DNA from: Candidatus Methylacidiphilales bacterium
Lineage (GTDB): Bacteria > Pseudomonadota > Gammaproteobacteria > JASGCS01
Assembly (NCBI GenBank): GCA_030054035.1
Contig: JASGCS010000012.1
Location: 7,297 to 41,513 of the forward strand
Direction of reading: 5' to 3'
Length of the DNA stretch: 34,217 bases
Shown piece after piece: positions 8,716-27,176 of this stretch. The stretch's first letter is position 1, and each line of letters opens with the position of its first letter. A model generated the notes under the pieces. It was not told where the DNA came from. It made no database searches and saw only the letters and a program-made list of their open reading frames with translations. A program made the translations under genes and the position numbers.

Positions 8716-8733
8716 AATGTATCTCCAAGAGTT

Positions 8734-10449: not shown

Positions 10450-10484
10450 TATAATATTTATAAATCATATATTACCTCATTTCT

Positions 10485-11351
10485 ATGACAAAATTTGAAT
10501 TACTAGTACCCACCCATTGCACCCTTGGAGAAAGTCCAAGATGGGATGAAATTAATAACTTAGTTTATTGGATTGATATACTAGAATGTAAAATTCATTG
10601 CTATTATGAAAAAACTGGTAAGCACACTTCGTATGTTTTACCTGAACCTATTGGATGTTTAGTCTTAGACAAAAAAGGTGGTTTGATACTTGCACTAAAA
10701 AGTGGAATTTACTATCTTGAATCTTTTAATCACACTCCACAATTAATCGCAACTTCTCCCGAAATACATCTCAAAGACAACCGATTTAATGACGGTAGGT
10801 GTGATGCGAGGGGAAGGCTTTTGATTGGCACCATATACCCACCAAAAGATAAAGGAGGTGCGAATTGCTACTCTTTTGATTTTGTTACTAATACCTTTAA
10901 ACTAATACAAGATGATTTAATGACGGCAAACGGAATAGCTTTTAGTTTAGATAATCAGACCTTGTATTTAGCTGACACACCTCGACATTGTATTTATTCC
11001 TATAATTACAATCTGGTTAGCGGGACTGTTAGTAACAAAAAAATATTCGCAAAATTTCAAGATGGAAAAGGAAGGCCAGATGGCGCTTCTATTGATAGTG
11101 ATAATTATTATTGGACTGCGCTTTATGATGGAAAAAGAATTGTTAGATTATCTCCATTAGGTGAAATCGCAGAGTCTTATGATTTTCCTTGTCAGTCCCC
11201 AACCATGGTTGCTTTCGGAGGAAAAAACTTAAAAACTATGTTTGTCACTTGTGTAGGTGAAAACGGAAAAAGTGGATTATATTGTTATGAAAGTCCCTTT
11301 ACGGGAGTAGTAGAATGGAGATGCAATGGAACAAGAATTTCAATTAACTAA
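10485..11351 (+). CDS. SMP-30/gluconolactonase-family lactonase, candidate sulfogluconolactonase
   Basis: Six-bladed beta-propeller lactonase of 288 aa that opens an aldonolactone to the acid. Metal-site residues of the family are visible: Glu16 (TLGESPRW), Asn102-Asp103 (DNRFNDGRCD), Asn149 (MTANGIAFS) and Asp199 (GRPDGASID). No signal peptide, so cytosolic. No Shine-Dalgarno is seen before ATG 10485; an AT-rich TATATT-like box lies just upstream, so a leaderless start is possible. The gene overlaps the SDR gene by 26 bp, which couples the lactonase to the dehydrogenase that makes its lactone. Substrate (6-deoxy-6-sulfogluconolactone against arabino-, xylono- or rhamnono-lactone) is inferred from neighbours only. 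Confidence 0.85.
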   Translation: MTKFELLVPTHCTLGESPRWDEINNLVYWIDILECKIHCYYEKTGKHTSYVLPEPIGCLVLDKKGGLILALKSGIYYLESFNHTPQLIATSPEIHLKDNRFNDGRCDARGRLLIGTIYPPKDKGGANCYSFDFVTNTFKLIQDDLMTANGIAFSLDNQTLYLADTPRHCIYSYNYNLVSGTVSNKKIFAKFQDGKGRPDGASIDSDNYYWTALYDGKRIVRLSPLGEIAESYDFPCQSPTMVAFGGKNLKTMFVTCVGENGKSGLYCYESPFTGVVEWRCNGTRISIN

Positions 11352-12102
11352 CCAATATCCAAGTCTAAAAGGGAAAAAAGTTTTTATAACTGGTGGTGGT
11401 ACGGGTATTGGAAGTTATCTTTCCGAGCATTTTTGTGCACAAGGCTCACTTGTTTCATTCATTGGGGTGAGTAAAGAGGTTGGGACGGCACATGCCAAAA
11501 AGCTTTCTTCTACCTACAACACATATTGTTCATTTGCTCCCTGCGATGTAAGAAATATTGAACAACTACAATCAAGTCTTGAAGTTGCGACAAAATTGAT
11601 GGGGGGACTTGATATTATTATAAACAACTCTGGAAATGATGAAAGACATACAATTGAAGAAGTTACACCCGATTATTGGGATAATTGTTTAAACATAAAC
11701 TTACGGCCACATTTTTTTACCATGCAAAAAGCCTTATCTTTATTTCCCGAACAAGGAGGAGTGATAATTAATATGGGTTCTATTGGATGGATGAGAGGTA
11801 GAACCGGCATCGTATGCTACACCACTTCCAAAGGCGCAATCCATGCACTAACACGAACAATGGCGAGAGAATTAGGAGTTAAAAATATTAGAGTAAATTC
11901 AGTTGTTCCTGGTGCAATTGTAACTCCAAAACAAAAAGCGCTTTGGCTCACTCCCGAATTAGACAAAATGTTCATAGATCTTCAGTGTCTTAAATTTAGA
12001 CTGACCCCGAATGATGTTGCCGCACTAACATTGTTTTTAACTTCAGATGACGCTCGTGCCATTGCTGGTCAAAGTTATGTTGTAGATGGTGGGATAGTTT
12101 AA
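11326..12102 (+). CDS. Short-chain dehydrogenase/reductase, candidate sulfoquinovose dehydrogenase
   Basis: Classical SDR of 258 aa. Cofactor motif TGGGTGIG (22-29), NNSG (100-103), catalytic Ser152, Tyr165 and Lys169 (YTTSK), and the C-terminal GQSYVVDGG are all intact. The strand that normally ends with the NAD-selecting Asp reads SFIGVSKE, with neither Asp nor a typical NADP Arg, so cofactor preference is open. The start at ATG 11326 has GGAG 5 nt upstream, inside the lactonase gene. Placed with a lactonase, dehydratase and aldolase, it should oxidise C1 of an aldose to the lactone. In sulfo-ED loci this step is an SDR acting on sulfoquinovose. L-arabinose, D-xylose or L-rhamnose dehydrogenase are alternatives. 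Confidence 0.85.
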   Translation: MEQEFQLTNQYPSLKGKKVFITGGGTGIGSYLSEHFCAQGSLVSFIGVSKEVGTAHAKKLSSTYNTYCSFAPCDVRNIEQLQSSLEVATKLMGGLDIIINNSGNDERHTIEEVTPDYWDNCLNINLRPHFFTMQKALSLFPEQGGVIINMGSIGWMRGRTGIVCYTTSKGAIHALTRTMARELGVKNIRVNSVVPGAIVTPKQKALWLTPELDKMFIDLQCLKFRLTPNDVAALTLFLTSDDARAIAGQSYVVDGGIV

Positions 12103-12186: not shown

Positions 12187-13347
12187 ATGAAAAATAAAAT
12201 TATTACATCACTTGTATTACTAACCACTATGTCACTAATGATGGCTTGTGGTAAAAAAAATGACGAAAACACACTCGGTAAAGGAGAGGGTCAGGTTGAT
12301 ATTGTTGCTTGGCCAGGTTACATTGAGCGAGGTGAGACAGACAAATCCTATGATTGGGTAACTGCATTTGAAACCGCTACTTCTTGCAAAGTTAATGTTA
12401 AAACTGCAGGGACATCTGATGAAATGGTGGCTTTAATGAATCAAGGAGGATTTGATTTAGTAACAGCTTCTGGAGATGCTTCCTTACGATTGATTTCTGG
12501 TGGAAAAGTAAGGTCAATCAACACTGCTCTAATTCCTAGCTGGAACAAAGTTCTTCCTCAGCTACAAAATGGGCCATGGCACACGGTAGATGGGAAACAT
12601 TACGGAACTCCTTATCAGTTGGGCATAAATGTGCTAATGTACAACACCAAAGTATTTAAAGAAGCCCCAACTTCTTGGTCAGTAGTTTTTGAAGAGCAAA
12701 AACTTCCAGATGGTAAATCTAACAAGAACAGAGTGCAGGCCTATGATGGTGCGATTTACATTGCTGATGCTGCTTTATATTTAATGTCTGCAAAGCCAGA
12801 ATTAGGTATCAAGGACCCATATGAACTCACCGAAGAACAATACTCAGCCGTTATTGAATTGCTGAAAAATCAAAGGAAAATTGTTCCAAAATATTGGCAT
12901 GATGCAACAGTACAAACAGAAGATTTTAAAAAAGAAGGAATTGTTGCGTCAGGATCTTGGCCATTTCAGGTCAATTTATTAGTAGCAGCCAAAGCTCCGG
13001 TTTCGAGCACTATCCCAAAAGAAGGTGCAACGGGTTGGGCTGATACCACCATGATGCATGCAAATGCACAACATCCCAATTGCGCATATCTTTGGATGGA
13101 ACATTCTTTAAATGTTAAAGTTCAAGGAGATATTTCAGCATGGTTTGGTTCTCTCCCAGTAAGAGAAGACGCATGTATGAATAATGCACTGCTAGGTCAA
13201 GAAGGTTGTAAAACAAATGGTTGGGATCATTTATCTAGTATTAAATTCTGGAAAACACCAACCACAACTTGTCCTACCCAAGGTAACAAGTGTGTCCCTT
13301 ATGATCGATGGGCGAAAGACTTTATCGCAATCATGAGTGGTACATAA
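12187..13347 (+). CDS. ydcS: YdcS-type ABC transporter substrate-binding lipoprotein
   Basis: Periplasmic binding protein of 386 aa, closely resembling E. coli YdcS along its length: VDIVAWPGYIERG near 36-48, YDWVTAFE, GGFDLVTASGDASLRLI, GTPYQLGINVLMYNT, LPDGKSNKNRVQAYDG, AWFGSLPVRE and the end WAKDFIAIMSGT. Residues 1-21 form a lipoprotein signal (MMAC lipobox). Start supported by AAGGAAGG about 7 nt upstream. YdcSTUV is classed as a polyamine-family importer and has been tied to putrescine use. The 84-nt gap after the SDR gene and its own strong ribosome site suggest separate or boosted expression. Because it sits inside the sugar-acid cluster, import of a sulfonated sugar cannot be excluded. 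Confidence 0.9.
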   Translation: MKNKIITSLVLLTTMSLMMACGKKNDENTLGKGEGQVDIVAWPGYIERGETDKSYDWVTAFETATSCKVNVKTAGTSDEMVALMNQGGFDLVTASGDASLRLISGGKVRSINTALIPSWNKVLPQLQNGPWHTVDGKHYGTPYQLGINVLMYNTKVFKEAPTSWSVVFEEQKLPDGKSNKNRVQAYDGAIYIADAALYLMSAKPELGIKDPYELTEEQYSAVIELLKNQRKIVPKYWHDATVQTEDFKKEGIVASGSWPFQVNLLVAAKAPVSSTIPKEGATGWADTTMMHANAQHPNCAYLWMEHSLNVKVQGDISAWFGSLPVREDACMNNALLGQEGCKTNGWDHLSSIKFWKTPTTTCPTQGNKCVPYDRWAKDFIAIMSGT

Positions 13348-13364
13348 CGAATAAACAGGAATAA

Positions 13365-14375
13365 ATGAACACCGCTGTATGCTTTGAGCAGGTATATAAA
13401 AAATATAACTCGCATGAAGCTATCAGCGGTGTTTCTTTTTCAGTACAAGAGGGTGAATTTTTTAGTTTACTCGGCCCCTCAGGATCAGGCAAAACTACTT
13501 GTTTAAAATTAATTGCTGGTTTTGAACAGCCTAGCAATGGTAGTATTAAAATTTTTGAACAAGATATAAAAAACATACCACCGTATCGCAGACCTCTCAA
13601 TACAGTATTTCAAGATTACGCATTATTCCCTCACTTGACCGTTTTGGAAAATGTAGCATTTGGATTAATGGTGCGATCAGTTTCAAAATCTAAAAGAGAA
13701 TCACAAGCTTTAGAAACTCTTGAATTAGTAAAATTAAATGGGTATGCGAATAAAAAACCACATGAGCTATCTGGTGGTCAACGTCAACGCGTTGCACTTG
13801 CTAGAGTCCTAATTCTCAAACCAAAGATATTATTACTTGATGAACCACTCGGTGCGCTTGATTTAAAATTGCGTGAGGAAATGCAACTAGAACTAACACA
13901 ATTACATCGCAATCTAAATATTTGTTTCATTTATGTAACTCACGATCAAGGTGAGGCGCTTTCAATGAGTAATCGAATTGCGGTTTTTAATAAAGGCACT
14001 ATTGAACAAATCGCAATACCTAAGGCACTTTACAATTCCCCTAGCAATGAGTTTGTAGCTAAATTTATTGGTATTTCAACTATTATCCCCTCACCATTTG
14101 CAATAAAACACAATTTGCCCCCAGCTACGTATCTTTTACGGCCAGAACAAATATTCGTCACTAAGTCTCCTTCACAACTATCTCCAGATTTTATTCAACT
14201 AAAAGCAGAAATAGATACCATTAACTACCAAGGTAGAACTACTCAAATTCTTTGCCATGTGGAAAATATCTTATTTAAATTGGAAGCCCCCTCAAACATT
14301 CCCATCGCATTACAAGATACTATTTATTTTTATTGGAATAAAAACCACATGCACAAGATTTCTGTCGCTTCATGA
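13365..14375 (+). CDS. ydcT: ABC transporter ATP-binding protein (YdcT/PotA type)
   Basis: Cytosolic ATPase that powers the importer encoded around it. Walker A LGPSGSGKTT (36-45), Q-loop Gln83 (FQDYALFPH), signature LSGGQ (135-139), Walker B LLLDEP with Asp159 and Glu160, and switch His193 (VTHDQGEA) are all intact. A C-terminal TOBE-like domain follows from about residue 240, as in PotA. Length 336 aa. AGGA lies a few nt before the ATG. It overlaps the next permease gene by 4 nt (ATGA). Confidence 0.95.
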   Translation: MNTAVCFEQVYKKYNSHEAISGVSFSVQEGEFFSLLGPSGSGKTTCLKLIAGFEQPSNGSIKIFEQDIKNIPPYRRPLNTVFQDYALFPHLTVLENVAFGLMVRSVSKSKRESQALETLELVKLNGYANKKPHELSGGQRQRVALARVLILKPKILLLDEPLGALDLKLREEMQLELTQLHRNLNICFIYVTHDQGEALSMSNRIAVFNKGTIEQIAIPKALYNSPSNEFVAKFIGISTIIPSPFAIKHNLPPATYLLRPEQIFVTKSPSQLSPDFIQLKAEIDTINYQGRTTQILCHVENILFKLEAPSNIPIALQDTIYFYWNKNHMHKISVAS

Positions 14376-15292
14376 AATCTTCAATAGCTACTCATATTTC
14401 AGACTACTTCTACTACCGAACCACAGTATCTGTTTTTCTATTACTAACTCCAGTTATACTCTGGGTAGGGATTATTTATGGTGGTTCGTTACTTTCTATG
14501 TTAAGTTTAAGTTTTTTTAGCACTGATCCTTTCACAGGTTCAATAAATTACACATTGACAATGCAGAATTTTATTGATATCGTTACAATTAAAACTCATA
14601 AGGAAATAATTTTACGAACTGTTATTTTTTCTACATTAGTTACGATTTGCGCGGCGCTCATTGCCATTCCGCTTGGATACACTTTTGTGTTTCTCACTCC
14701 TAATAAATTTAAACCATTTATTTTTTTAGCCATATTGCTACCATTATGGTCAAGTTACTTAGTGCGTGTTTACGCTTGGAAATTAATCCTCGCTAAGGAA
14801 GGAGTCATCACATGGCTCTCAGAAAAAACCCATACCGAATCAATACTGCAAGGTGTTCTAGATATTCCAATAATTGGTGGAAACTCACTTTCATTTAGTT
14901 ACATCGGTACTTTCCTAGTTTTTCTTTATTTATGGCTACCTTTTATGATTTTGCCAATTATCGCCTCAATAGAACGAATTCCCAAAAATGTCCTTCAAGC
15001 TTCTTGGGACCTAGGTGCCAATCAATGGAAGACTTTTTTAAAAGTAGTCATACCACTAATTATCCCTGGTATTGTAGCTGGATCAATATTCACATTTTCA
15101 CTTACACTCGGAGACTATATCACCCCTCAAATTGTCGGAAACTCAAGACCATTAATTGGCCAATACATCTATATTCTGCAAACCTCTAATGGAAACATAC
15201 CTCTTGCCGCGGCATTTTCCTTCATACCTATCATTGTGATGGGGGTATATTTAATTATCGCTAAAAGATTAGGTGCTTTTGATGCGCTTTGA
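14372..15292 (+). CDS. ydcU: ABC transporter permease (YdcU/PotB type)
   Basis: Inner-membrane permease of 306 aa with about six transmembrane segments. The conserved cytoplasmic loop that contacts the ATPase is visible as LQASWDLGANQWKTFLKVVIP near 208-228, the EAA-like motif of this class, followed by LGDYITPQIVG near 248-258, a hallmark of polyamine-type permeases. Translationally coupled to the ATPase gene upstream (ATGA overlap) and to the second permease downstream. Confidence 0.93.
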   Translation: MKSSIATHISDYFYYRTTVSVFLLLTPVILWVGIIYGGSLLSMLSLSFFSTDPFTGSINYTLTMQNFIDIVTIKTHKEIILRTVIFSTLVTICAALIAIPLGYTFVFLTPNKFKPFIFLAILLPLWSSYLVRVYAWKLILAKEGVITWLSEKTHTESILQGVLDIPIIGGNSLSFSYIGTFLVFLYLWLPFMILPIIASIERIPKNVLQASWDLGANQWKTFLKVVIPLIIPGIVAGSIFTFSLTLGDYITPQIVGNSRPLIGQYIYILQTSNGNIPLAAAFSFIPIIVMGVYLIIAKRLGAFDAL

Positions 15293-16061
15293 TAAAATAT
15301 TGTTAATATTTTTTTCATTTTGCGGACTTTGTTTCTTGCTGGTTCCATTTTCTTTTATCATTTTGTATGCGTTTAGCCCCAATGAGAAAACATTTGATTT
15401 TCCTATTGCTGAGTACACCACAAAATGGTTTTCCATAATAGTTGCACGATCTGACGTATGGAACGCAGTTTCGCTCTCTTTTACTGTGGCGTTTTTTGCA
15501 ACATTACTTGCACTTATTATTGGAACTATGACTTCAATTGCAGTTTCAAGATACAAATTTTTTGGCAGAGAAAATTTTTCGCTTCTTTTAATACTTCCAA
15601 TTGCGCTTCCTGGCATTATCACTGGAATCGCACTGCGATCTTCAATCACCATCTTGGAAATACCCTTTTCTACTTTTACGATAGTACTTGGGCATGCTAC
15701 ATTCACCATAGTAGTTATTTATAACAATGTTATAGCCAGACTTAGAAGACTGCACCCTAATTGTTTAGAGGCCTCATATGATCTTGGTGCTAATATATTT
15801 CAAGCCTTCTTTTTTGTATTGCTTCCACAAATGTACTCTGCGCTGTTCGCTGGAGCTATGTTAGCTTTTGCACTTTCTTTTGATGAGATTATTGTTACCA
15901 CTTTTACAGCAGGTCAACAAACTACACTTCCGATTTGGATGTTAGACCAACTTATTCGACCACGGCAAAAACCAATCACCAATGTCGTGGCAATATTTAT
16001 AATCTTATTTACAATTATTCCTATTATCTATTCTTTTCGAATATTAAATAAACATGCTTAG
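15282..16061 (+). CDS. ydcV: ABC transporter permease (YdcV/PotC type)
   Basis: Second membrane subunit, 259 aa from ATG 15282. This start is preferred over an in-frame GTG at 15273 because AGG at 15271-15273 is then correctly spaced at 8 nt; it overlaps the preceding stop by 11 nt. About six hydrophobic segments; the EAA-type loop is LEASYDLGANIFQAFFFVLLP in the middle of the C-terminal half, and ALSFDEIIVTTFTAG is the PotC-type motif. The TAG stop shares bases with the TAA of the convergent aldehyde dehydrogenase gene (overlap 16058-16061), so no terminator space separates the two transcripts. Confidence 0.93.
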   Translation: MRFDKILLIFFSFCGLCFLLVPFSFIILYAFSPNEKTFDFPIAEYTTKWFSIIVARSDVWNAVSLSFTVAFFATLLALIIGTMTSIAVSRYKFFGRENFSLLLILPIALPGIITGIALRSSITILEIPFSTFTIVLGHATFTIVVIYNNVIARLRRLHPNCLEASYDLGANIFQAFFFVLLPQMYSALFAGAMLAFALSFDEIIVTTFTAGQQTTLPIWMLDQLIRPRQKPITNVVAIFIILFTIIPIIYSFRILNKHA

Positions 16062-17494
16062 AGCTTGATCATGATATGTCTTAGTACGGTATAGTCCTCT
16101 AAAGCATACATTGATAAGTCCTTTCCGTACCCTGATTGCTTCATTCCACCATGTGGCATTTCGGTAGCAAGTAAAAAATGAGTATTAACCCACGAGCAAC
16201 CGAATCTGAGCCTACTCGCTACAAACAATGCTTTACCAATATCACTACCCCAAACTGAAGATGATAAACCATATTCGGATTGGTTAGCCCATTGAATTGC
16301 CTGCTCAACCGTTTCATATTCTGTAACAGTTACTACCGGCCCAAATACTTCTCGCTTAACTATCTCATCATTTGGTAAAGCTCCCGCAATGACCGTTGGT
16401 TCAAAATAATAACCTGTGCCTTGAACTTTTGAACCGCCTGTGACTACTTCCATATGATTACTGGCCTTAGCTCTTTCAACAAAACCAGATACTCGCTCTT
16501 GTTGTTTTGCAGAAATTAAAGGTCCAATATCATTTTTTGAATCATCTGATTTATTATATTGAATAGTTTTTACTTTTGTAGCCAACTCTTGCACCACTTG
16601 TTTGTATATATTTTTCTGCGCATAAATTCTACAAGCCGCGGTACAATCTTGGCCACTGTTATAATAACCGAAGGTTTTGATTGATTCAGCAAATTGAGAT
16701 ATATCAGCGTCATCAAGCACTATTACCGGTGCCTTGCCCCCTAACTCTAAATGAGTTTTTTTGATCGTAGAAGACACCAACTGAAGAATTTTTTTTCCAG
16801 TGTGAACATCTCCAGTTAAAGAAACCATATCAACTTTAGGATGTGAAACTAATTGACTGCCAACCTGCTCGCCTCTTCCAGTAATGATATTTATAACGCC
16901 GGGTGGAAAAATAGAGGAAATTTCTTTAGCTAATAATAAGGCAGTAAGGGGGGTCTGTTCTGAAGGTTTGACCACTATGGTATTTCCAGTTGCGACTGCT
17001 GGAGCTATTTTCCATGCTACCATCTGTAGAGGATAGTTCCATGGCGCTATTGAACCTACTACTCCAATTGGATCTCTCCTTAGCATGGAAGTATATCCTT
17101 GTAAATATTCTCCTGCAGGACTGGCAATCATAGTTCTACAGGCTCCAGCAAAAAATCTAAAACAATCAATTATCGCAGGCATTTCGTCTTGCCGCATTCT
17201 TTCACTTGGCTTACCACAATTTAAAGATTCCAGTGAGGCATAATCAACTAAATTTCTTTCAATAGCATCCGCAAGCTTTAATAAGAGCAAACTCCTTTCG
17301 GCAGGAGTAGTATGAGACCATGTTTGAAATGCATGTGATGCCGCCTCAACCGCTCTATCAACCTGTTCGTTGCTAGCCTCAGCTATCTTAACAATCACAG
17401 ATCCATTGCGTGGATTATAAATCATTTCTTCTTGCCCAGCGCCTACTTCAAGCGAAGCACCAATCAGCATTTTTGTATTATATTGTAAGCTCAT
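16058..17494 (-). CDS. patD: Aldehyde dehydrogenase, PatD/YdcW-like (4-aminobutyraldehyde dehydrogenase; possible sulfolactaldehyde dehydrogenase)
   Basis: NAD-dependent aldehyde dehydrogenase, 478 aa. Active-site residues are intact: Asn153 (PWNYP), Lys176 (KPSEQTP), Glu250 (LELGGKAP) and catalytic Cys284 (SGQDCTAACRIYAQ). Long stretches read like E. coli YdcW/PatD (for example AGEYLQGYTSMLRRDPIGVV, PHGGMKQSGYGKD, LEDYTVLRH), which oxidises 4-aminobutyraldehyde from putrescine; in E. coli that gene also stands beside ydcSTUV. Here, however, it is the last gene of the sulfolactate-glycerol-mutarotase operon, 29 nt after the ankyrin gene. A sulfo-ED pathway needs an aldehyde dehydrogenase for sulfolactaldehyde, and this is the only one in the window. 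Family call firm, substrate open. Confidence 0.85.
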   Translation of the reverse strand: MSLQYNTKMLIGASLEVGAGQEEMIYNPRNGSVIVKIAEASNEQVDRAVEAASHAFQTWSHTTPAERSLLLLKLADAIERNLVDYASLESLNCGKPSERMRQDEMPAIIDCFRFFAGACRTMIASPAGEYLQGYTSMLRRDPIGVVGSIAPWNYPLQMVAWKIAPAVATGNTIVVKPSEQTPLTALLLAKEISSIFPPGVINIITGRGEQVGSQLVSHPKVDMVSLTGDVHTGKKILQLVSSTIKKTHLELGGKAPVIVLDDADISQFAESIKTFGYYNSGQDCTAACRIYAQKNIYKQVVQELATKVKTIQYNKSDDSKNDIGPLISAKQQERVSGFVERAKASNHMEVVTGGSKVQGTGYYFEPTVIAGALPNDEIVKREVFGPVVTVTEYETVEQAIQWANQSEYGLSSSVWGSDIGKALFVASRLRFGCSWVNTHFLLATEMPHGGMKQSGYGKDLSMYALEDYTVLRHIMIKL

Positions 17495-17523
17495 ACATAA
17501 TCTCCCTTTGTTTATTAATTATA

Positions 17524-19845
17524 CTACTTAAGATATTTTTCTAAACTTTCTAAGTTAAGTGGAATTCTTGAATTATTTTTTAACAATTCAAGTAAGGTTT
17601 TTCCATTTGGACTTAGTTTCTTTAAATTTTTTGATTTTTGCAACATAGTTTCAATCATAACTATCGAGCTACTATACAGAGATGCATACTCCAACGGAGT
17701 CCAGCCTTGGTTATTTTCTTGATCTACTGAAAATTCACTCTCAAGTAACGCGTTCAAAACTTCTAAAGAAGGATTGTATCTGGCAGACAAGTGCAATGCA
17801 CTATTCCCATCAGCATCATTGATTGCTTTCATATTTTTATCTCTAGATAAAACCAGCACCATGACAGGGTTTGAATTGTATCTAGCGGCCAGTAGCAGTG
17901 GTGTCGCCAATGACTCACTTTCTTTTTTATTTTGTTTTACACCAATACTTATTAAATATTCAAGCACACTGGAATTTGGCCCATATCGAGCCGCGGTATG
18001 CAGGGGTGTGTAACCAACTGAATTAGTTGCTTCAATTTGGACTCCAGATTGAATCAAGAATTTTGCTATTTGAATATCGCGACTGTTCATTGCAACTAAA
18101 TGCAATGGCGTATTACCAATAATATCTTTTTCATCAAAATCTACACCAACTTCTTTTAATACTTTAAATAAAGAAGTGTCACTACTTGAATTAGATAGGA
18201 TATGAGCTAAATTCCACTTTTCTTTTTTAGTAACTATTTTTACATCATCACCTGATTTAACTAATGCTGTCAGCGCATAAAGATTATTTGATTGGCAGGC
18301 AAGCTGAATCGGACGATAAAGTTTATTATTGTCTATCTGGGGATTTGCACCGGCTTGAAGTAAGGAGATAATAACATTAAGATTAAAATTTGAACTAGCC
18401 GCAAGCGCTAACGGAGTATTCCCATCAATATCTTTAGCGTGTAAATCCAGGCCCAATTTTACTAATGATTCAATCACTTCTTTTGAAGAATTATTTGCAG
18501 AAGCTATGTGAAGTAGGTTTCTTTTTAGTGGATCTTTTTCTTGAATTGAAAAGCCCTGTAGTAACAGAAACGTTAACGCATCACTATTTATATTTGACTT
18601 TACAGCATGTTGTAGAATTGAATATGGGCTTTGACAAATAGCTGTTTTTTTATTTAATTGTTGTATAACCCATTGCAATGTTGCAGAGTTATAATTGGTT
18701 GCAATTGCTAAACATTGCCAATCAAAACCATCATCGGTTGTCAATTTTTGATCTTTTGCATGTCGTAACAACACTTCCAACACTTTAGGGTTGCTGGTTT
18801 TTTGCGCAGCCAGGAGTAATGGGGTGTAACCGTTTGCATCTACATGTCTAAAATTAGCACCTCGATCGAGCAAATACTTAACTAGTAACTCTGAAGGATT
18901 GTTAGCTACCGCGTAATCTAACACGGTCCATTGGCTAGTTTGATTAATAACGGAATTGATATCCATCCCGCTTCTAAAAAAAGCTTCTGCAATTTTATGA
19001 TTTGGATTTAAAGAAACTGCAATCATAAAAGGATTTAAGTCTTCTTTATTTCTGTAGCCAGAACTTGCACCACGCGCTAACAATAACTCTATGATGCGAG
19101 GGTCTTTAGCAAACTGTGCGGCAATATGAAGGGGGGTATTATTATCTTGATCCCTCAGATTCATATCAAAAGCTGCGTTAATTAACAATTCTGCAGTTTT
19201 ATAATCATCTACAAAACGAGCGGCAATATGAAGAACGGTTTGCCCGGTTGCATCACGTAAATTTATACTCGCTTGTTTTTTAAGTAATAATTTTGTAGTT
19301 TGATAATCGGGACGCAATCGCAAACCAATCATAATTGGGCTCATTCCCCATTTTTGTGTTCTTGCGTCAATGTTTGCGCCTTCTTGGATAAGTGCGTTTA
19401 CTATTTCAATACTCGGCACAAACCTAGTTGCGACATGGAGCGGTGTCCAATTATCTTCAGCAAGACTGTTTACTGAGATTCCTAGTTTAATAATTTTCTT
19501 TATTATCTGTGGATTTGAATTGTATTGAGATGCTACATGGAGTGAGGTAAGGGAAAGTTTGCTGGTTCTAATCGAAATATCACAACCGGCATTTTCTAAT
19601 TGATCTAAAAGTTCAGGGTTTGTAGCGAACGCCGCCGAATAATGAAATACTGTCCAGCCATTTTCATCTAACGAATTAAGCTCTTCTTTATCCTTCACTT
19701 CTGAAAGTTTAAGCGCCAGAGAAGCTGTTGTTGCTGATTTCCAGAAAATGTCTGAGCGTAACTCTGATTTTATTTGAGCGTAACTTAAAGGCACGGCACA
19801 AAATCCACACCATAGTAAGAGAGCCATTAATAATTTTCTTGTCAT
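17524..19845 (-). CDS. Exported ankyrin-repeat protein, about 21 repeats
   Basis: 773 aa. Residues 1-23 look like a Sec signal peptide (hydrophobic LLMALLLWCGFCAVPL, then SYA/Q). From about residue 55 to the end I count roughly 21 ankyrin-like repeats of about 34 residues. Clear ones carry DxxGxTPLHxAA (for example DIIGNTPLHLVA, NSVGYTPLHTAARYG, DQDNNTPLHIAAQF), usually followed by a loop of the type R(F/Y)xxNPxx(I/V)xxLL. No catalytic domain or second fold is visible, so it is a solenoid scaffold acting outside the cytoplasm, in the periplasm or beyond. It lies 9 nt after the mutarotase gene and 29 nt before the aldehyde dehydrogenase gene, embedded in a metabolic operon. The binding partner is unknown. 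Confidence 0.9.
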   Translation of the reverse strand: MTRKLLMALLLWCGFCAVPLSYAQIKSELRSDIFWKSATTASLALKLSEVKDKEELNSLDENGWTVFHYSAAFATNPELLDQLENAGCDISIRTSKLSLTSLHVASQYNSNPQIIKKIIKLGISVNSLAEDNWTPLHVATRFVPSIEIVNALIQEGANIDARTQKWGMSPIMIGLRLRPDYQTTKLLLKKQASINLRDATGQTVLHIAARFVDDYKTAELLINAAFDMNLRDQDNNTPLHIAAQFAKDPRIIELLLARGASSGYRNKEDLNPFMIAVSLNPNHKIAEAFFRSGMDINSVINQTSQWTVLDYAVANNPSELLVKYLLDRGANFRHVDANGYTPLLLAAQKTSNPKVLEVLLRHAKDQKLTTDDGFDWQCLAIATNYNSATLQWVIQQLNKKTAICQSPYSILQHAVKSNINSDALTFLLLQGFSIQEKDPLKRNLLHIASANNSSKEVIESLVKLGLDLHAKDIDGNTPLALAASSNFNLNVIISLLQAGANPQIDNNKLYRPIQLACQSNNLYALTALVKSGDDVKIVTKKEKWNLAHILSNSSSDTSLFKVLKEVGVDFDEKDIIGNTPLHLVAMNSRDIQIAKFLIQSGVQIEATNSVGYTPLHTAARYGPNSSVLEYLISIGVKQNKKESESLATPLLLAARYNSNPVMVLVLSRDKNMKAINDADGNSALHLSARYNPSLEVLNALLESEFSVDQENNQGWTPLEYASLYSSSIVMIETMLQKSKNLKKLSPNGKTLLELLKNNSRIPLNLESLEKYLK

Positions 19846-19854
19846 GCTTATATT

Positions 19855-20712
19855 TTAACTCACATCAGAAACGGTTATACTTTGTTTCCAGACTAAGGTT
19901 TGATTAGCGCCAAGAGTAACAGGGTCTACTTGTGCTGGTTCAATGCAAATAAAATGTAGTTCACTTCCCATAGTGATATCGGAAAAATTCTTTGTGGTAG
20001 CTAATGGATTCCATATGACCCAATCGGCTAATCCAATTTTATTAATAGTGATTTTCCTAAGATATTGGTAGCTAGAATCAATTAACTGAACCATATCATT
20101 AGAACGATAGACGCGATCTAAACAACTTAAATCACTAATTTTCAACTGATTCGATTCATATTTTCCGTTTACCTTATTAAAATACGAAGCTCCACTTAAT
20201 CCGGTTAGCGTAACGGTATTTATATCACTTATTGCATAATAGGTATGAAACCCTCCCGAACAAGTCACACTATGGTCGCTGGTATTCAAGATAGTTAGTT
20301 CTTGGTGCAACATATTAGACTCACTTGAAGCAGTGATTAACAAAGTTAAAAAATAACTGTCTAACCGATTAGTTTTATCTGTGACTGTGGTAGATAGTTG
20401 AACTGAGACAGTTGTTAAAGTAGTGGTAATTTTTTTAATATTCCAATCCTGAACTCTTGCGTAACCATGATTTTGATAACCTTCTCGTGTGGCAAACCAT
20501 GGAAAACAAATTGGAATTCCCCCTCTAATAGGATCAAATGATTTATAATCTACATCTGATTTCCATAAAATAGATGGCGCGTTTAAAATTGGGAACCAAT
20601 CTAATACATGGGCTCCAAACTTAGAGATGGTTAAGTATTTATTATTTAGGGCAGATCGTACTTCAATTAAATCAAGGTTAGTTTGTTCATCTTTATTTAA
20701 ACGGACACGCAC
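19855..20712 (-). CDS. Aldose-1-epimerase-like mutarotase (YeaD family), candidate sulfoquinovose mutarotase
   Basis: 285 aa, YeaD/hexose-6-phosphate mutarotase branch of the aldose-1-epimerase superfamily. Typical pieces: RGGIPICFPWFATRE (63-77), the catalytic His82 in NHGYARVQDW, His156 in GGFHTYY, and catalytic Glu258 in ICIEPAQ. Cytosolic, no signal peptide. It speeds anomer exchange of a 6-substituted hexose. The classical substrate is glucose-6-phosphate; mutarotases of this family acting on sulfoquinovose are known from sulfoglycolytic clusters, and sulfoquinovose mimics a 6-phosphate sugar by its C6 anionic group. The operon context with sulfolactate genes favours sulfoquinovose. Located 3 nt after glpD. 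Confidence 0.85.
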   Translation of the reverse strand: MRVRLNKDEQTNLDLIEVRSALNNKYLTISKFGAHVLDWFPILNAPSILWKSDVDYKSFDPIRGGIPICFPWFATREGYQNHGYARVQDWNIKKITTTLTTVSVQLSTTVTDKTNRLDSYFLTLLITASSESNMLHQELTILNTSDHSVTCSGGFHTYYAISDINTVTLTGLSGASYFNKVNGKYESNQLKISDLSCLDRVYRSNDMVQLIDSSYQYLRKITINKIGLADWVIWNPLATTKNFSDITMGSELHFICIEPAQVDPVTLGANQTLVWKQSITVSDVS

Positions 20713-20715: not shown

Positions 20716-22233
20716 TCAATGTTGTAGTCTATCAATCTCGTCTTCAATTTTTTTACATTCGTCACTATTTAGATATAGAAACATTCTTGATCTTCTATAC
20801 AAATAATCTTCGGCCTTTTTTACATGCTCATGGTTTACTACATAGGCTAGTTCTTTTGCAAACACACCTGGAGCAATTTCTTTACCTAGATCTTTGATAG
20901 AAGTACAATGATTGAGCAGTAACCCAATTCTTGAACCATATACATGCAACCATCTATCCAATACTTCAACTGGAAGCCAATAATATCTTTTTTTATATAT
21001 TTCCAAAATATCTGCTTTGCTTTCTTGTTTTGGGTAACTCTCACTTCCAGGTAAGGCCACATCCTTAGTCCAAGTAAGCTGTGTATTTCCTAATGCTTGT
21101 GCAATATCATTTACAATACTTTCACTTACTAAGCGATAGCTAGTTAGTTTTCCACCATACACATTGCACCACCATGTACGGCGATACTCTTTACGCTCAT
21201 AAAAGTATTCTCGTGAAGCATCACGCATGGTTTTGCTTGAAGGTAGTAAAGCCCTGACACCACTAAAACTCCACAGTATGTCAGATGATTTTGGTTTATA
21301 TAAAAAATATTTTCCAACAATTTCTAAAAGATATTCAATTTCTTGGGTTTCTATTTTGCACTCTCGTGGTTCATGAGCAAAGGGCAACTCAGTTGTACCA
21401 ATTAATGAAAAAGAATCTTCAAATGGAATAACAAACACCACCCTTCCATCATAATTCATAAGTAAATAACTGTGATCACCTTGGTACAGCGCGGGAACTA
21501 CAATGTGGCTACCTTTAACAAGTTCTGGTAGTCGTTCTGGAGCGTAGGCATGCAGGGGGTTAAGATCCGATTGGTTTTTTATCCATGGTCCAGTTGCTTG
21601 AAGCACTACTAAAGATTTAATTACTATTTTTCTTTTTTGCTCATCAACAAATGTAAGTACCCAGTGGTCATATTTTTGCTCAACAGATACACATGTGGTA
21701 TAGGTATAGATCAACGCACCATGTTGTTTGGCGCTTAAAACATTTTCCACCACTAACCGAGCGTCATTGGTACGACAATCTCCATAACCAAAACCACATT
21801 GAATATCAGTACGTAGGTTAGGATTTTCTTTATCCCATTGCGTTTTCGTAACATACCTGCCTTTTGGTGTGTTGTTAGTGGCGCCGGCAAGATAATCATA
21901 TATAGCTATTCCAGTTCTAAGCAGTAACCTTGAACGGCCATTTTTTCGCCAAGGAATTCTAAATTCGCTTTGCCAACATAAATGAGGAGCAATATTTTGA
22001 AGTATAGTTCTCTCACTAAGACTTTCTTTTACTAATGAAAAATGAAAATTTTCTAAATAGCGTATGCCGCCATGTAATAATTTAGAACTATATGAACTTG
22101 TTCCAGATGCTATATCATTGCAGTCTATTAAAGCGGTTTTTATCCCTCTTCCAGCAGCGTCTCTGGCCACACCAGCACCAATTATGCCGCCCCCTAAAAT
22201 CACTAAATCGACTTGCAGCGCTGTATCAGTCAT
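20716..22233 (-). CDS. glpD: Glycerol-3-phosphate dehydrogenase (FAD, aerobic type)
   Basis: Membrane-associated flavoenzyme of 505 aa that oxidises sn-glycerol-3-phosphate to dihydroxyacetone phosphate and feeds electrons to quinone. The N-terminal dinucleotide motif is VILGGGIIGAGVARDAAGRG (about 10-29). Other GlpD landmarks are SSKLLHGGIRYLENFHF (about 49-65) and GGKLTSYR (about 371-378). Length matches E. coli GlpD (501). It lies 1 nt after glpK, so both glycerol steps are translated together. The unusual feature is the setting: no glpF or glpR is present and the pair is wedged between sulfolactate genes and the mutarotase gene. Confidence 0.95.
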   Translation of the reverse strand: MTDTALQVDLVILGGGIIGAGVARDAAGRGIKTALIDCNDIASGTSSYSSKLLHGGIRYLENFHFSLVKESLSERTILQNIAPHLCWQSEFRIPWRKNGRSRLLLRTGIAIYDYLAGATNNTPKGRYVTKTQWDKENPNLRTDIQCGFGYGDCRTNDARLVVENVLSAKQHGALIYTYTTCVSVEQKYDHWVLTFVDEQKRKIVIKSLVVLQATGPWIKNQSDLNPLHAYAPERLPELVKGSHIVVPALYQGDHSYLLMNYDGRVVFVIPFEDSFSLIGTTELPFAHEPRECKIETQEIEYLLEIVGKYFLYKPKSSDILWSFSGVRALLPSSKTMRDASREYFYERKEYRRTWWCNVYGGKLTSYRLVSESIVNDIAQALGNTQLTWTKDVALPGSESYPKQESKADILEIYKKRYYWLPVEVLDRWLHVYGSRIGLLLNHCTSIKDLGKEIAPGVFAKELAYVVNHEHVKKAEDYLYRRSRMFLYLNSDECKKIEDEIDRLQH

Positions 22234-22234: not shown

Positions 22235-23743
22235 TTATCTACGGCAATAAGTTAAAACAGAAGATATTGCCCCACTCCAATTTTGCAAAGCTTTGACTCT
22301 AGTGTCATGATCCATATTTGGATTATGTATTGTACCTTTATTCTTAATTTTTTGTAGATCGCCAAGTTGGTTTAGAAATCCCTTGCCTAACATTGCAAGA
22401 TACAATGCTCCTAATGCGGTAGTTTCTGGTATTCGCGAAATCACGACTGGCATATCTGTAATATCTGCTAAAAATTGTACTAACCAATTATTTACAGTCA
22501 TGCCTCCATCCACATTCAATTGTTTAGGTAGTATTTTGGTTTTTTTAAACAAGGTAAGTATATCTTGCGTTTGATATGCTACTGATTCAAGCGCCGCTCT
22601 GGCAATATGTGCTTTATTAGTTGAGCGAGTGATACCAACCAGTGAGGCTTTTGCATTCGCTTCCCAGTATGGTGCGCCTAGTCCTGTAAATGCTGGCACA
22701 AAATACACCCCGCCATTATCTGCAAGCGGAGATACAAGTGCTTCAATTTCATCAGCCGAAGATATTATTTGTAATTGATCGCGTAACCACTGCACTGATG
22801 TTCCAGCATTAAAAATAGATCCTTCTAATGCGTAACTTAAAGTGTTATTATTTGACTTTAAACCATACCCTATAGTAGTGAGAAGCCCATCAATCGGAGC
22901 TGGAACAGCTAAACCTACATTCATAACAATAAAGCAACCTGTGCCATAGGTTGATTTTATTTCACCTTGATTAAAACACATTTGCCCAAAAGCAGCGGCT
23001 TGCTGATCACCAGCACAACCAGTGACAGATACCGAATAAGATAATCCAAAAGATTTAGTTTCTAAAAAATGGGAATCACATAATTGGATAGTCGGCAACA
23101 TAGATTCTGGAATTGTAAATAATTCCAGCAATTCTTTATCCCAAGCGCCAGTATGTATGTTGCAGAGTAAAGTTCTACTTGCGTTAGTACAATCAGTAAC
23201 ATGGGATTTTCCATTAGACATTAAGTACATCAGATACGTATCCACTGTACCAAACGCGAGTTCACCTCGCATGGCTTTTTGACGAGCCCCATCAATAGTA
23301 TCTAAAATCCATTTTATTTTTGTTGCCGAAAAATATGGGTCGATCAATAACCCAGTTTTAGCACGGATAAGTTTTTCATGGCCCTGTTCTTTTAATGTTT
23401 CACAGTATTGGTTTGTTCTACGATCTTGCCATACAATTGCAGAATAAATTGGCACACCAGTTTTTTTATCCCAAACTATGGTTGTTTCACGCTGATTGGT
23501 AATACCGATAGTTTCAATGTGTAAATCATGTTCGTCTGCAAATTGTAGAACTTTGAGACAGGCTTGCTCAACTGAGTTCCAGATTTCATTAGGGGCTTGC
23601 TCAACCCAACCTAATTGCGGATAGTAGGTTGGAAACTCATTCTGTGATTTTGCGATTGGATCGCCTTCCAATGAAAATAACATTGCACGAGAAGATGAAG
23701 TTCCTTGATCAATTACTAAAACACACTGCTGGTGCTGGCTCAT
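22235..23743 (-). CDS. glpK: Glycerol kinase
   Basis: FGGY-family kinase of 502 aa that phosphorylates glycerol with ATP. N-terminal phosphate-binding motif VIDQGTSSSRAMLF (about 10-23), the NQRETT segment near 82-87, GCAGDQQAAAFGQ near 242-254 and FTGLGAPYW near 354-362 are all characteristic of GlpK, not of other FGGY kinases. Length equals that of E. coli GlpK. It follows slcC by only 3 nt. Glycerol would be released from sulfoquinovosylglycerol by a sulfoquinovosidase, which gives a reason for this gene order; general glycerol use is the simpler alternative. Confidence 0.96.
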   Translation of the reverse strand: MSQHQQCVLVIDQGTSSSRAMLFSLEGDPIAKSQNEFPTYYPQLGWVEQAPNEIWNSVEQACLKVLQFADEHDLHIETIGITNQRETTIVWDKKTGVPIYSAIVWQDRRTNQYCETLKEQGHEKLIRAKTGLLIDPYFSATKIKWILDTIDGARQKAMRGELAFGTVDTYLMYLMSNGKSHVTDCTNASRTLLCNIHTGAWDKELLELFTIPESMLPTIQLCDSHFLETKSFGLSYSVSVTGCAGDQQAAAFGQMCFNQGEIKSTYGTGCFIVMNVGLAVPAPIDGLLTTIGYGLKSNNNTLSYALEGSIFNAGTSVQWLRDQLQIISSADEIEALVSPLADNGGVYFVPAFTGLGAPYWEANAKASLVGITRSTNKAHIARAALESVAYQTQDILTLFKKTKILPKQLNVDGGMTVNNWLVQFLADITDMPVVISRIPETTALGALYLAMLGKGFLNQLGDLQKIKNKGTIHNPNMDHDTRVKALQNWSGAISSVLTYCRR

Positions 23744-23746: not shown

Positions 23747-24670
23747 TTAGCCAAGTGAGATAGCTACTTCTTTAGCAATCATCGCGCTGACACGCACATT
23801 TGACTCTTCAGTAACTCCAGCAATATGGGGGCTGCATAAAAGATTTCTTACTTGGGCAAAAGGCTTAGCTTTTTCCCCTACAATAGGTTCATGCTCAAAT
23901 ACATCAAGCGCCGCTCCAAGAATTTTTTTATTTCTCAATAAATCAATAAGTGCTAGTTCATTGACTATACCACCGCGAGAGGTATTGATAAGACAAGCAG
24001 TAGATTTCATTTTTTCGAGCAAGTCTCGATTGACTAAGTTTTTAGTATTATCAGTAAGTGGTAAGTGTATGCTAATTATATCCGCGCTTGAAAAGAGTTT
24101 AGTCAGAGAAACATTTTCGCACTGTTGTTTGGTAAAAATAGATTGGTCCACAAAAGGATCATGCGCCATCAACGGGCAATTAAAAACCCCAGCTATTCTA
24201 GCGGTCTCCCTTGCAATAGCTCCAAATCCTAAAAATCCAAAAACTTTGCCAGATAGCTCCTGCCCAATCATTTTATTCCTTGGCCATTCGCCATTTGCAG
24301 TTAATTCACTTGAGACAAAAGCATTTCGCAATAAAATAAGTGCGGATCCAATTACATACTCCGCAACAGATCGATCGTTTGACCCTGTCGCAGGAATTAC
24401 TGTAATTGCTCTTTTTTTGCACTCATCAAGTGAGATATTGTCCAACCCTACACCTAATCTACCTACTACCTTCATATGTGGTGCTAGGTTAAGTAATTCA
24501 GCAGTAACTTGGGTACGATTACGGACAATTAACGCATGAGCATTATTTAATTCTCGTTTTAATCTTTCAGGATCATCTACTAGAGTAGCATCAAAAACAA
24601 CTTCATAATTGGACCGTAACGATTCAACCGCTTCAATGTTCATAAACTCAGAAATTACAATTTTTTTCAT
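23747..24670 (-). CDS. slcC: (S)-sulfolactate dehydrogenase (SlcC), D-2-hydroxyacid dehydrogenase family
   Basis: 307 aa, the family of D-3-phosphoglycerate dehydrogenase without the C-terminal ACT domain. NAD motif FGFLGFGAIARETA (144-157) and the catalytic triad Arg232 (NTSRGG), Glu261 (FEHEP) and His282 (SPHIAG), with family spacing. SlcC oxidises (S)-sulfolactate to sulfopyruvate. The assignment comes from its place next to comC and suyAB: in the sulfolactate pathway described in Chromohalobacter salexigens, SlcC and ComC act as a two-enzyme racemase ahead of SuyAB. Start supported by GGGAG 9 nt upstream. Alone, the sequence would only support a 2-hydroxyacid dehydrogenase. Confidence 0.82.
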   Translation of the reverse strand: MKKIVISEFMNIEAVESLRSNYEVVFDATLVDDPERLKRELNNAHALIVRNRTQVTAELLNLAPHMKVVGRLGVGLDNISLDECKKRAITVIPATGSNDRSVAEYVIGSALILLRNAFVSSELTANGEWPRNKMIGQELSGKVFGFLGFGAIARETARIAGVFNCPLMAHDPFVDQSIFTKQQCENVSLTKLFSSADIISIHLPLTDNTKNLVNRDLLEKMKSTACLINTSRGGIVNELALIDLLRNKKILGAALDVFEHEPIVGEKAKPFAQVRNLLCSPHIAGVTEESNVRVSAMIAKEVAISLG

Positions 24671-24682
24671 AACTAATACTCC

Positions 24683-25699
24683 CTATTTTTTAGCTAACTC
24701 ATTTAATTCTTCATACAAAATATTAGAAATGGATAATCCCTGTTGCTTTGCCTTTTCTCGAAAGGTTAATCTTGAGATTCCTGGTAATCTGCCTTGTGGG
24801 GCGGCGATTGCATACTCACGCAACAAATCTTTTACTCTATCCAAATACCCATTACCTTCAGAAATAATCATTGGATTAATAGCAATAAAAGTATGCCCGA
24901 GGTCTGGAAAAGTACCTCCAGGTTCAAGTAATGAATCCGCTTCAACACTTAATTTAGAATTTGTCAAGCATGCACTATACAACTCAACCATAAGTGCTAG
25001 TGCCGAACCTTTAGCTCCACCTATTGCTAAAAGACTTCCTCGCAAAGCTTCTTCCGGATCTGTAGTAGGTTTGCCTTGTTTATCCACCGCCCAATCAGGA
25101 GATATTTTTGTACCTTCTTTTTTTGCTTTGACAATTTTTCCCCGTGCTACTACAGAAAGCGCCATATCAATCACTAAAGGAGATTTATTTTCAGGCATAG
25201 GAAAAGCACATGCAATCGGGTTAGTCCCAAAAAAAGGTTTTATCCCCCCATAAATTGCCATTGCACTTGGAGTATTGCCGCAACACCATCCAATCAGGCC
25301 GGCTTCAGCAAGCTGCTCCACATGCAACCCCGCCTGACCAAAATGGTGTGAATGGCGAATTGTAGAAATTGCAATACCATATTTATTAGCAGATTTTTTG
25401 AGAAAATCTAAAGAAAGAGTAATAGCTGGATAGGAAAAACCATGGTCGGCATCGGCAATTGAAACCACCGGTGTAACTTCTTTGAGACTTGGGATAGCTT
25501 TGGTATTGATCTTTCCTGATTTAATTTGAACTATATATGAACCAACTCTAATAAGCCCATGCCCAACTTGGCCATCAATTTCTGATTGAACTAAAACTCG
25601 AGCAACTTGAAACGCGGTATTCTGATCAACAGAAGCCGATATAAAAGCTTTTGTTGCTAACGCAGTAGCATCATCTATAGATAATGTGATATTACTCAC
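24683..25699 (-). CDS. comC: (R)-sulfolactate dehydrogenase (ComC), malate/L-lactate dehydrogenase type 2 family
   Basis: 338 aa member of the Ldh2/MDG2 family (also malate, lactate and ureidoglycolate dehydrogenases), which does not use a classical Rossmann fold. Family landmarks: DGQVGHGLIRVGSY (42-55), the catalytic region STIRHSHHFGQAG (about 112-124), GTNPIACAFP (about 159-168) and GGAKGSALALMVEL (about 228-241). ComC interconverts sulfopyruvate and (R)-sulfolactate with NADPH. Beside SlcC and SuyAB it would supply the (R)-isomer for desulfonation. The start appears to be GTG at 25699, 8 nt after suyB, with no clear Shine-Dalgarno, consistent with coupling. Confidence 0.82.
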   Translation of the reverse strand: MSNITLSIDDATALATKAFISASVDQNTAFQVARVLVQSEIDGQVGHGLIRVGSYIVQIKSGKINTKAIPSLKEVTPVVSIADADHGFSYPAITLSLDFLKKSANKYGIAISTIRHSHHFGQAGLHVEQLAEAGLIGWCCGNTPSAMAIYGGIKPFFGTNPIACAFPMPENKSPLVIDMALSVVARGKIVKAKKEGTKISPDWAVDKQGKPTTDPEEALRGSLLAIGGAKGSALALMVELYSACLTNSKLSVEADSLLEPGGTFPDLGHTFIAINPMIISEGNGYLDRVKDLLREYAIAAPQGRLPGISRLTFREKAKQQGLSISNILYEELNELAKK

Positions 25700-25707
25700 A
25701 AATTGAG

Positions 25708-26877
25708 TTATGCACTTCTATAAAGTTTTGTCATGACAAATTCTCTATGTCTTAGCGCTTCAGCCGCAGTTATCCTTCCGTTAGCTGTTCTATAAACCAT
25801 GTCAACCAACATATCCCCAGCTTTATCGAGGTCTATTTGTAATGTCATTATTCCGCTTACATCAACATCAATATGCTCTCTCATAGTTCTTACGGTTCTT
25901 GGGTTTGCGGTAATTTTAATAACTGGAATAATTGGATGACCGATGACATTACCTTGTCCAGTCGGAAAAGTATGCACGACAAATCCAGCGGCAGCCATTA
26001 GAGTAACGCATTCTGCCGCAGCAGAAGAACTGTCCATAAAGTACATGCCATTACCTTTTGTAGGGGCCTCAGCGGGCTTAAGCACATCAATAAACTTGAC
26101 GTTTTTACCAATTTTTTCTAAGTTGCCAAGTGCTTTTTCTTCAATAGTTGTCAACCCTCCTTCTATATTTCCCTTGGTGGGCTGACTATCAGATAAATCA
26201 GAAGTTTTATGTTGCTCAATTACTTCAGTTTGATAACTCTGCCAGGTACTGAGAAATTTTGTTGCAATTTCACTTGAAATTGCTTTTTTAGCACAGAGTT
26301 GCTCTGCTCCAGTAAGTTCAGAAGTCTCGCCAAAAACGCCACAAACACCTAATGGTATTAACTTATCATACATATTTCCAACAGTAGGATTTGCACCTAA
26401 ACCAGAAGTAGTATCAGACTCCCCACATTTTGTAGAGACCCATAATTCTGAAATTGAACATTCTTCACGCACTAATTCAGAAGCCTGATGCACAAACTCT
26501 TTTGCCGCGCGAGAGGCGTTCATAATTGTCTCAAAATCTCCATGCTGTTCAATTGAGAATCCAATTACTGGCTTTCCAGTTTTAGCAATTCCATCTACGA
26601 CAATTTTTGTCCAACCTGGCTCAATGCCGATTACTACACAAGCAGCTACATTTGGATTTGCTCCAGTACCAATAATTGTTCTAAAGTGTAATTCTAGATC
26701 TTCGCCAAACTGTAAGCGACCATAAGAATGAGATAGCGCTATAGTGCCAAACACATTCGCAGCCACAGCCTCACATGCTGCATTTGATAAATCATCTACC
26801 GGTAATATCGCAACATGATTACGAACACCTACTCTTTTATTACTTCTGCGATAACCATAAAATATATTTTTTGACAT
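25708..26877 (-). CDS. suyB: (R)-sulfolactate sulfo-lyase, large subunit (SuyB)
   Basis: 389 aa, UxaA-family hydrolase domain (the altronate/galactarate dehydratase catalytic fold). Segments such as [17 protein letters not shown] (17-33), [69 protein letters not shown] and the end [12 protein letters not shown] match SuyB as I know it. Conserved Cys in TKCGESDT is a likely iron or cluster ligand. With SuyA it splits (R)-3-sulfolactate into pyruvate and sulfite. The start is ATG 26877, not an in-frame TTG at 26895, because AAAGGGGA lies 5 nt ahead; this leaves an 11-nt gap after suyA rather than an overlap. Confidence 0.88.
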
Positions 26878-26888
26878 AGTATCCCCTT

Positions 26889-27176
26889 TTACCAACGTTT
26901 AGTTTTTAAATTGTGAACATGTACATGGTCGCCTTTTTTAATAGGCGCCACTACCTTACCGATATCTGCACCATATTTAATTACGGTATCTCCTACTGCG
27001 AGATCGACGAGCGCTATCTTATGACCAATTGGCGCGCTCTGATTGCAGGTAAGTGAAAAAGTAGCTCCGGAATCTAACACAGCACAATGCATAGTTGTGT
27101 TCTTTTCCAAGCCTTCAATAACAATCACACCAACAGAATCGCCAGAATGATGTACTAATAAGTGAGGTTTATTCAT
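26889..27176 (-). CDS. suyA: (R)-sulfolactate sulfo-lyase, small subunit (SuyA)
   Basis: 95-residue SAF-domain protein, the size of SuyA and of the UxaA N-terminal domain as a separate chain. Recognised pieces are [18 protein letters not shown] near 5-22, [20 protein letters not shown] near 50-69, DIGKV and the C-terminal [10 protein letters not shown]. It is the partner of SuyB in C-S bond cleavage. It is the first gene of the long minus-strand operon; start ATG 27176 has GGAG 6 nt upstream, and two TATAAT boxes lie at 27213-27218 and 27222-27227 on this strand. Confidence 0.87.

Follow-up and report, generated by a model that had tools for sequence, protein, structure and literature searches.

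A predicted Sec-exported protein of 21 ankyrin repeats encoded in a sulfolactate gene cluster, probably as a passenger of the operon

Background

Solenoids of ankyrin repeats are non-catalytic and act by binding proteins. AnkB of Pseudomonas aeruginosa is periplasmic and needed for full KatB activity, according to work cited in PMC3091734, and an ank-katE operon has been described in Leptospira (PMC7567364). Bd3460 of Bdellovibrio bacteriovorus binds and blocks periplasmic endopeptidases (PMC4686830). Here, an ankyrin gene is analyzed that lies in a stretch of 34,217 nucleotides (the window) from a contig of Candidatus Methylacidiphilales bacterium, which is assigned to the Gammaproteobacteria. 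An earlier note, made from this stretch alone, had singled out the gene as encoding an exported ankyrin solenoid embedded in a catabolic operon and had proposed a connection with sulfolipid use.

Gene cluster around the ankyrin gene

Along the minus strand the gene order is suyA, suyB, comC, slcC, glpK, glpD, mutarotase, ankyrin and aldehyde dehydrogenase (ALDH), with a GntR gene divergent from them. The individual features are:

12187-16061, plus strand: ydcSTUV-like ABC transporter, convergent with ALDH (NCBIfam YdcS 615.7 bits, below the cut-off of 725)
16058-17494, minus strand: aldehyde dehydrogenase of the YdcW / aminobutyraldehyde type (NCBIfam NF010000, 749 bits, over the cut-off of 615; PDB 6c43)
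17495-17523, minus strand: 29-nt gap between ankyrin gene and ALDH, with Shine-Dalgarno-like AAAGGGAG (complement of about 17501-17509) and without terminator (sequence reading)
17524-19845, minus strand: predicted exported ankyrin-repeat protein, 773 aa (ORF, Pfam Ank families, period of 34)
19846-19854, minus strand: 9-nt gap between mutarotase and ankyrin gene, without terminator (ORFs, sequence, terminator scan)
19855-20712, minus strand: aldose-1-epimerase-like mutarotase (Pfam PF01263; PDB HI1317 / hexose-6-phosphate mutarotase)
20716-22233, minus strand: glycerol-3-phosphate dehydrogenase-like protein, GlpD (Pfam DAO, DAO_C)
22235-23743, minus strand: glycerol kinase-like protein, GlpK (Pfam FGGY)
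23747-24670, minus strand: SlcC-like 2-hydroxyacid dehydrogenase (Pfam 2-Hacid_dh; adjoins suyAB-comC at locus L077)
24683-25699, minus strand: ComC-like sulfolactate dehydrogenase (Pfam Ldh_2; best NCBIfam model L-sulfolactate dehydrogenase, under its cut-off)
25708-26895, minus strand: SuyB-like large subunit of sulfolactate sulfo-lyase (Pfam GD_AH; homologues in 11 other genomes)
26889-27176, minus strand: SuyA-like small subunit, 95 aa (ORF; homologues before every SuyB homologue examined)
27268-27987, plus strand: GntR-family regulator, divergent from suyA (ORF; likewise at L043, L077, L080, L081, L083 and L085)

The gaps of 9 and 29 nt that had been reported for the ankyrin gene are correct, and the search for a terminator that might isolate it revealed no terminator-like site in either gap. 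A single weak terminator-like match falls within the ankyrin gene, at its 5' end, and other genes of the region contain several more. Co-transcription of the ankyrin gene with its operon neighbours is likely. A match resembling a promoter directly ahead of ALDH (17545-17518) was discounted, as fewer such sites were present than in shuffled sequences.

The sulfonate setting assumed by the earlier note is reasonable, since the window contains likely sulfo-Entner-Doudoroff (sulfo-ED) genes in addition to suyAB-comC-slcC. The best solved match of an SDR is sulfoquinovose 1-dehydrogenase (9gwu, E=2.2e-69), and a lactonase, a sugar-acid dehydratase and an HpaI-type aldolase are also encoded; judged by their sequences, these four likely make up the sulfo-ED set. 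The nearest NCBIfam models of the SDR and the dehydratase are pentose enzymes, with scores under the equivalog cut-offs. The genome encodes one GH31 enzyme, which resembles YicI more closely than it does the sulfoquinovosidase YihQ. The likely sulfo-ED set (7954-12102) and suyAB-comC-slcC (23747-27176) share one region, which suggests that sulfoquinovose is fully broken down to pyruvate and sulfite within one cell; extended clusters of a similar sort have been reviewed for sulfo-TAL (PMC9594981). Beyond the GntR gene, the segment 28056-30801 encodes a glutamate-1-semialdehyde-aminomutase-like transaminase and a glutamine-synthetase-like protein, and a homospermidine-synthase-like gene is located at 6526-7944. 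Together with ydcSTUVW, these genes suggest amine or polyamine metabolism. The ALDH does flank the ankyrin gene as described, but gamma-aminobutyraldehyde dehydrogenase is among its best solved relatives, and an enzyme of this YdcW type is not an evident part of sulfonate catabolism. Neither of two papers on sulfoquinovose makes any mention of ankyrins.

Reading of the N-termini detected no signal peptide on ALDH, mutarotase, GlpD, GlpK, SlcC, ComC, SuyA or SuyB. The operon therefore encodes no enzyme that could be anchored or protected in the periplasm, and the suggestion that the ankyrin protein serves this purpose fails within it. The nearest exported product is a lipoprotein-like (YdcS-like) solute-binding protein encoded at 12187-13347.

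Export signal and repeat architecture

The ankyrin protein divides into three parts, all encoded on the minus strand:

19777-19845, minus strand: predicted signal peptide, residues 1-23, MTRKLLMALLLWCGFCAVPLSYA followed by the cleavage site and Q (sequence reading and rule-based scan)
19666-19752, minus strand: N-terminal cap, residues 32-60, FWKSATTASLALKL, with a W-x-x-A-T motif and a predicted helix pair (shared motif and low-confidence model)
17527-19665, minus strand: 21 ankyrin repeats, mostly of 34 residues (helix pairs, 17 repeat-profile matches, spacing)

The frame of the ankyrin ORF is open across just 776 aa and a stop lies just upstream of the start; this leaves little room for an earlier start, so that the predicted signal peptide is truly N-terminal. 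By reading, the signal peptide is of type I, with a basic n-region, a hydrophobic core and an AxA-like site (SYA before Q), and it was also flagged by a simple rule-based scan. No lipobox was seen at the N-terminus. The Sec signal peptide ascribed to the gene is thus also predicted here from the sequence, and export of the product via Sec appears probable. Since it has a predicted Sec signal but no anchor, the protein is expected to fold in the periplasm; in its mature form it has a mass of about 83 kDa, a pI of 7.8 and four cysteines.

Machinery for passage beyond the periplasm was searched as well. On contig C13 of the source genome (L126 1-20000), two genes for secretins have GspE- and GspF-like genes next to them; one set is T2SS-like and the second MSHA- or pilus-like. 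For the T2SS-like set, the secretins were identified by Pfam and the GspE-, GspF- and GspG-like ORFs by reading, and such genes would make secretion of the ankyrin protein possible. No match to AAA_10, the sole marker used for a T4SS ATPase, was found in the 96% complete genome.

Pfam analysis of the 773-aa protein returned ankyrin families only (Ank_2, E=7.5e-76, 251 bits against a cut-off of 27.3; Ank, E=7.1e-67), with repeats of the TPLHxAA core type, and no other domain was found, which agrees with the description as a pure ankyrin solenoid. Self-similarity reached its maximum at lag 34 (z=13.5; lag 33, z=2.4), well over shuffled copies, with harmonics at 68/69 and 102/103. A single-sequence AF2 model of low confidence (mean pLDDT 57) predicts an N-terminal helix pair followed by 21 successive helix pairs up to the C-terminus, in support of the proposed count of 21 repeats, and a rerun on residues 24-305 gave the same helix pattern, again at low confidence. 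In this model the cap helices span residues 31-36 and 39-47, and FWKSATTASLALKL with its W-x-x-A-T motif stands directly before repeat 1. The repeats had been called unusually regular at about 34 residues with a recurring NPxx loop. The period of 34 is real, but the regularity was overstated, as recognisable spacings are 34 (11 times), 35 (three times) and 36 (once); NP does occur, but in the loops of only about 7 of the 21 repeats.

Linkage to sulfonate and aldehyde dehydrogenase genes in other genomes

Conservation of the neighbourhood was assessed through homologues of the neighbouring genes rather than of the ankyrin gene itself. A strong SuyB homologue (67-76% identical) was present, apart from the source genome, in 11 of 369 genomes of the class. 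The surroundings of all 11 were inspected over about 9-10 kb per side where the contig allowed, with short flanks on one or both sides at L082, L083 and L084. Neither tblastn nor repeat profiles run over all ORFs of at least 60 aa detected an ankyrin ORF beside SuyB at any of these loci; the second ankyrin of the source genome, the positive control for the profile scan, was found. At four further loci, those of ALDH homologues in members of the class that belong to other families, ankyrin ORFs were likewise absent. The ankyrin gene is thus not kept beside suyAB across these genomes, and a functional tie to sulfolipid or sulfonate use finds no support. The earlier note had held that its proposal would fall if homologues always lay elsewhere, and the result comes close to that outcome. 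What stands of its proposal is an exported ankyrin solenoid encoded in the same direction as the sulfolactate genes; the tie to sulfonate use does not.

At every SuyB locus suyA precedes suyB; GntR recurs at six, and comC, slcC or both at some. At L077, GntR-suyA-suyB-comC-slcC is arranged as in the window and the conserved core stops at slcC, so that glpK-glpD-mutarotase-ankyrin-ALDH is a tail peculiar to the source genome among those compared. In three genomes (L064-L066), an ALDH of 59-61% identity follows ydcSTUV-like genes on the same strand, whereas in the window ALDH (minus strand) and the transporter (plus strand) converge with a 4-base overlap. ALDH is therefore inverted relative to its transporter, and the ankyrin gene adjoins a rearranged gene. 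GC and GC3 of the ankyrin gene match those of its neighbours, and the ordinary GC3 gives no sign of recent import. A recent insertion was also considered and rejected, because the longest direct match between the two ends of the gene is 8 bases and hence leaves no insertion scar.

Exported ankyrins of the 34-residue type

Two repeat types separate among the ankyrin ORFs of the class, one of 34 residues (consensus TPLHxAAxxNxNPEIIxxLLxxGADVNA) and one of 33 residues (TxLxxAAxxGHxxIVxLLL). Comparison of the two places the extra residue of the longer type, usually with a proline in that loop, between the two helices. The window protein has both the dominant period of 34 and the additional inter-helix loop residue; a 34-residue profile built without it matched 17 of its repeats, whereas a 33-residue profile yielded marginal scores only. 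A cap motif, aromatic-W-x-x-A-T-x-x-x-I/V with some substitutions, directly precedes repeat 1 in eight of ten 34-type proteins and is absent from that position in all 26 ORFs of the 33-type, a descriptive count because the motif was defined on the same proteins. A protein from another class of the phylum (L090) combines a signal peptide, 34-residue repeats and the near-identical cap EFYQTATADDV at the same place. In 369 genomes of the phylum its only match at E<=1e-25, apart from itself, was the second ankyrin of the source genome.

The source genome has just two ankyrin genes. The second (L044 8737-11061, 774 aa) encodes a signal-like N-terminus and 34-residue repeats and is divergent from the gene of a TPS-domain (two-partner secretion) protein, the pair spanning L044 6733-11061. 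A ShlB-type TpsB transporter is encoded inside the window at 31533-33284. In most proteins of the 34-type, the rule-based scan or inspection by eye pointed to a signal peptide or a membrane helix at the N-terminus, and the same holds for a fair share of the 33-type; exported ankyrins are therefore not rare. The premise that an exported ankyrin is unusual is accordingly weak, such proteins being common in the same class. The loci of the 34-type genes differ, L068 lying beside IscR-like and penicillin-binding-protein-like genes and L069 after a ParA-like gene.

No close orthologue of the ankyrin gene was found, and none of the compared genomes is more closely related to the source genome than at the level of the class. 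A whole-contig search with the protein gave one generic planctomycete match, viral contigs gave none, and plasmids and phages contained generic ankyrins only (about 23-29% identity). A phylum search with the cap alignment was dominated by 33-residue ankyrins. PADLOC matches of the protein were dismissed, as they look like generic ankyrin matches.

The 34-residue repeat and the cap may mark a coherent subgroup of exported ankyrins. They provide a searchable handle on exported bacterial ankyrins, which can be tested for a common kind of partner. It would be a bold extension, and an unlikely one, to regard the capped 34-residue proteins as a coherent family of envelope or extracellular binders of which one member has here come under a sulfonated-sugar regulon and become inducible. 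Were the gene indeed induced with sulfonate use, it would to our knowledge be the first ankyrin tied to sulfonate metabolism.

Proposed role and alternatives

The protein is probably a Sec-exported, non-catalytic binding rod of 21 repeats and a passenger of the operon that stands outside sulfonate catabolism. Its short helical cap and the 21 ankyrin repeats after it, which are of the 34-residue type, would form a rod that binds proteins either in the periplasm or extracellularly. Known exported or co-operonic ankyrins work through a protein partner, and for this reason the window protein is read as such a rod; protein binding would follow by analogy with them. A partner among the operon neighbours is unlikely, because the operon enzymes lack signal peptides. 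The gene appears to have been captured in a lineage-specific operon tail beside the rearranged ydcW; as a result, co-transcription with the suy-glp-mutarotase genes is probable, yet the gene would take no part in sulfonate catabolism. If the gene is such a bystander, operon placement, even when tight, is a poor guide to function, as the relatives of its neighbours occur without an ankyrin gene.

The same arrangement could also be read as selected co-expression: in the presence of sulfonated sugars the cell would make the ankyrin protein, which would bind a partner involved in uptake in the periplasm or at the surface. The solute-binding protein of the adjacent ABC transporter could be such a partner, on the model of AnkB and KatB. 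The common strand, the gaps of 9 and 29 nt without terminator and the lipoprotein-like solute-binding protein encoded nearby (12187-13347) fit this reading, as do published cases, katB-ankB and ank-katE of Leptospira, in which an ankyrin gene shares the operon of the enzyme that it serves (PMC3091734, PMC7567364). Nevertheless it is unlikely, given the lack of ankyrin genes at all 11 SuyB and all four ALDH loci, a transporter that is ydcSTUV-like and whose relatives come without an ankyrin, and an operon devoid of exported enzymes.

Somewhat less likely still is a role towards a host or partner cell, with the solenoid secreted (e.g. by type II secretion) or displayed to bind eukaryotic or microbial partner proteins and the sulfonate neighbourhood reflecting life with a photosynthetic host. 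The small genome of 1.7 Mb and the GspD-, GspE-, GspF- and GspG-like ORFs on contig C13 are compatible with it, and the best solved-structure matches are animal ankyrins, although this is expected for long regular repeats. Against this stand the mere two ankyrin genes in the genome, unlike the repertoire of ankyrin-rich intracellular bacteria, the failure to find a VirB4-type T4SS ATPase in the genome, and a best NCBIfam score to Dot/Icm ankyrin-effector models of 140 bits, far under the equivalog cut-off of 500; no result indicates passage of the protein across the outer membrane. It is highly improbable that the protein is an inhibitor of, or self-protection against, an envelope enzyme in the manner of Bd3460, an ankyrin that is itself exported, as are the enzymes it blocks (PMC4686830). 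The other exported ankyrin of the genome does adjoin a TPS-domain protein, but the flanks of the window gene contain no exported enzyme gene and its 21 mostly 34-residue repeats differ from the six mostly 33-residue repeats of Bd3460. The reading as an exported binding rod carried along by the operon is therefore preferred.

Comparison with known systems

Like katB-ankB and Leptospira ank-katE, the window gene is an ankyrin gene that shares an operon with an enzyme gene. In those systems the ankyrin is needed for the adjoining catalase, whereas the enzymes of the window operon lack signal peptides and an exported co-operonic enzyme that AnkB-like help could serve was not found; moreover, the link between ankyrin gene and operon is absent from the other genomes examined. 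Bd3460 is, like the window protein by prediction, a Sec-exported pure ankyrin, and it acts by protein binding (PMC4686830). It differs in having a known endopeptidase target, whereas no candidate target is encoded beside the window gene, which does not conform to a Bd3460-type arrangement of about six 33-residue repeats next to an exported endopeptidase gene. With the Dot/Icm effectors AnkG, AnkX and AnkY, the window protein shares ankyrin repeats and weak profile matches only; unlike them, it has a predicted Sec signal and scores far below the model cut-offs. The window protein also resembles the exported ankyrins of L068, L070, L075 and L090, from other genomes of the phylum, which likewise combine a predicted signal peptide, NP-loop repeats of 34 residues and a W-x-x-A-T-like cap. 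These are encoded at other loci and in most cases have fewer repeats, and the repeats of the window protein are more diverged among themselves. The window protein thus joins the exported bacterial ankyrins that are already known as a kind.
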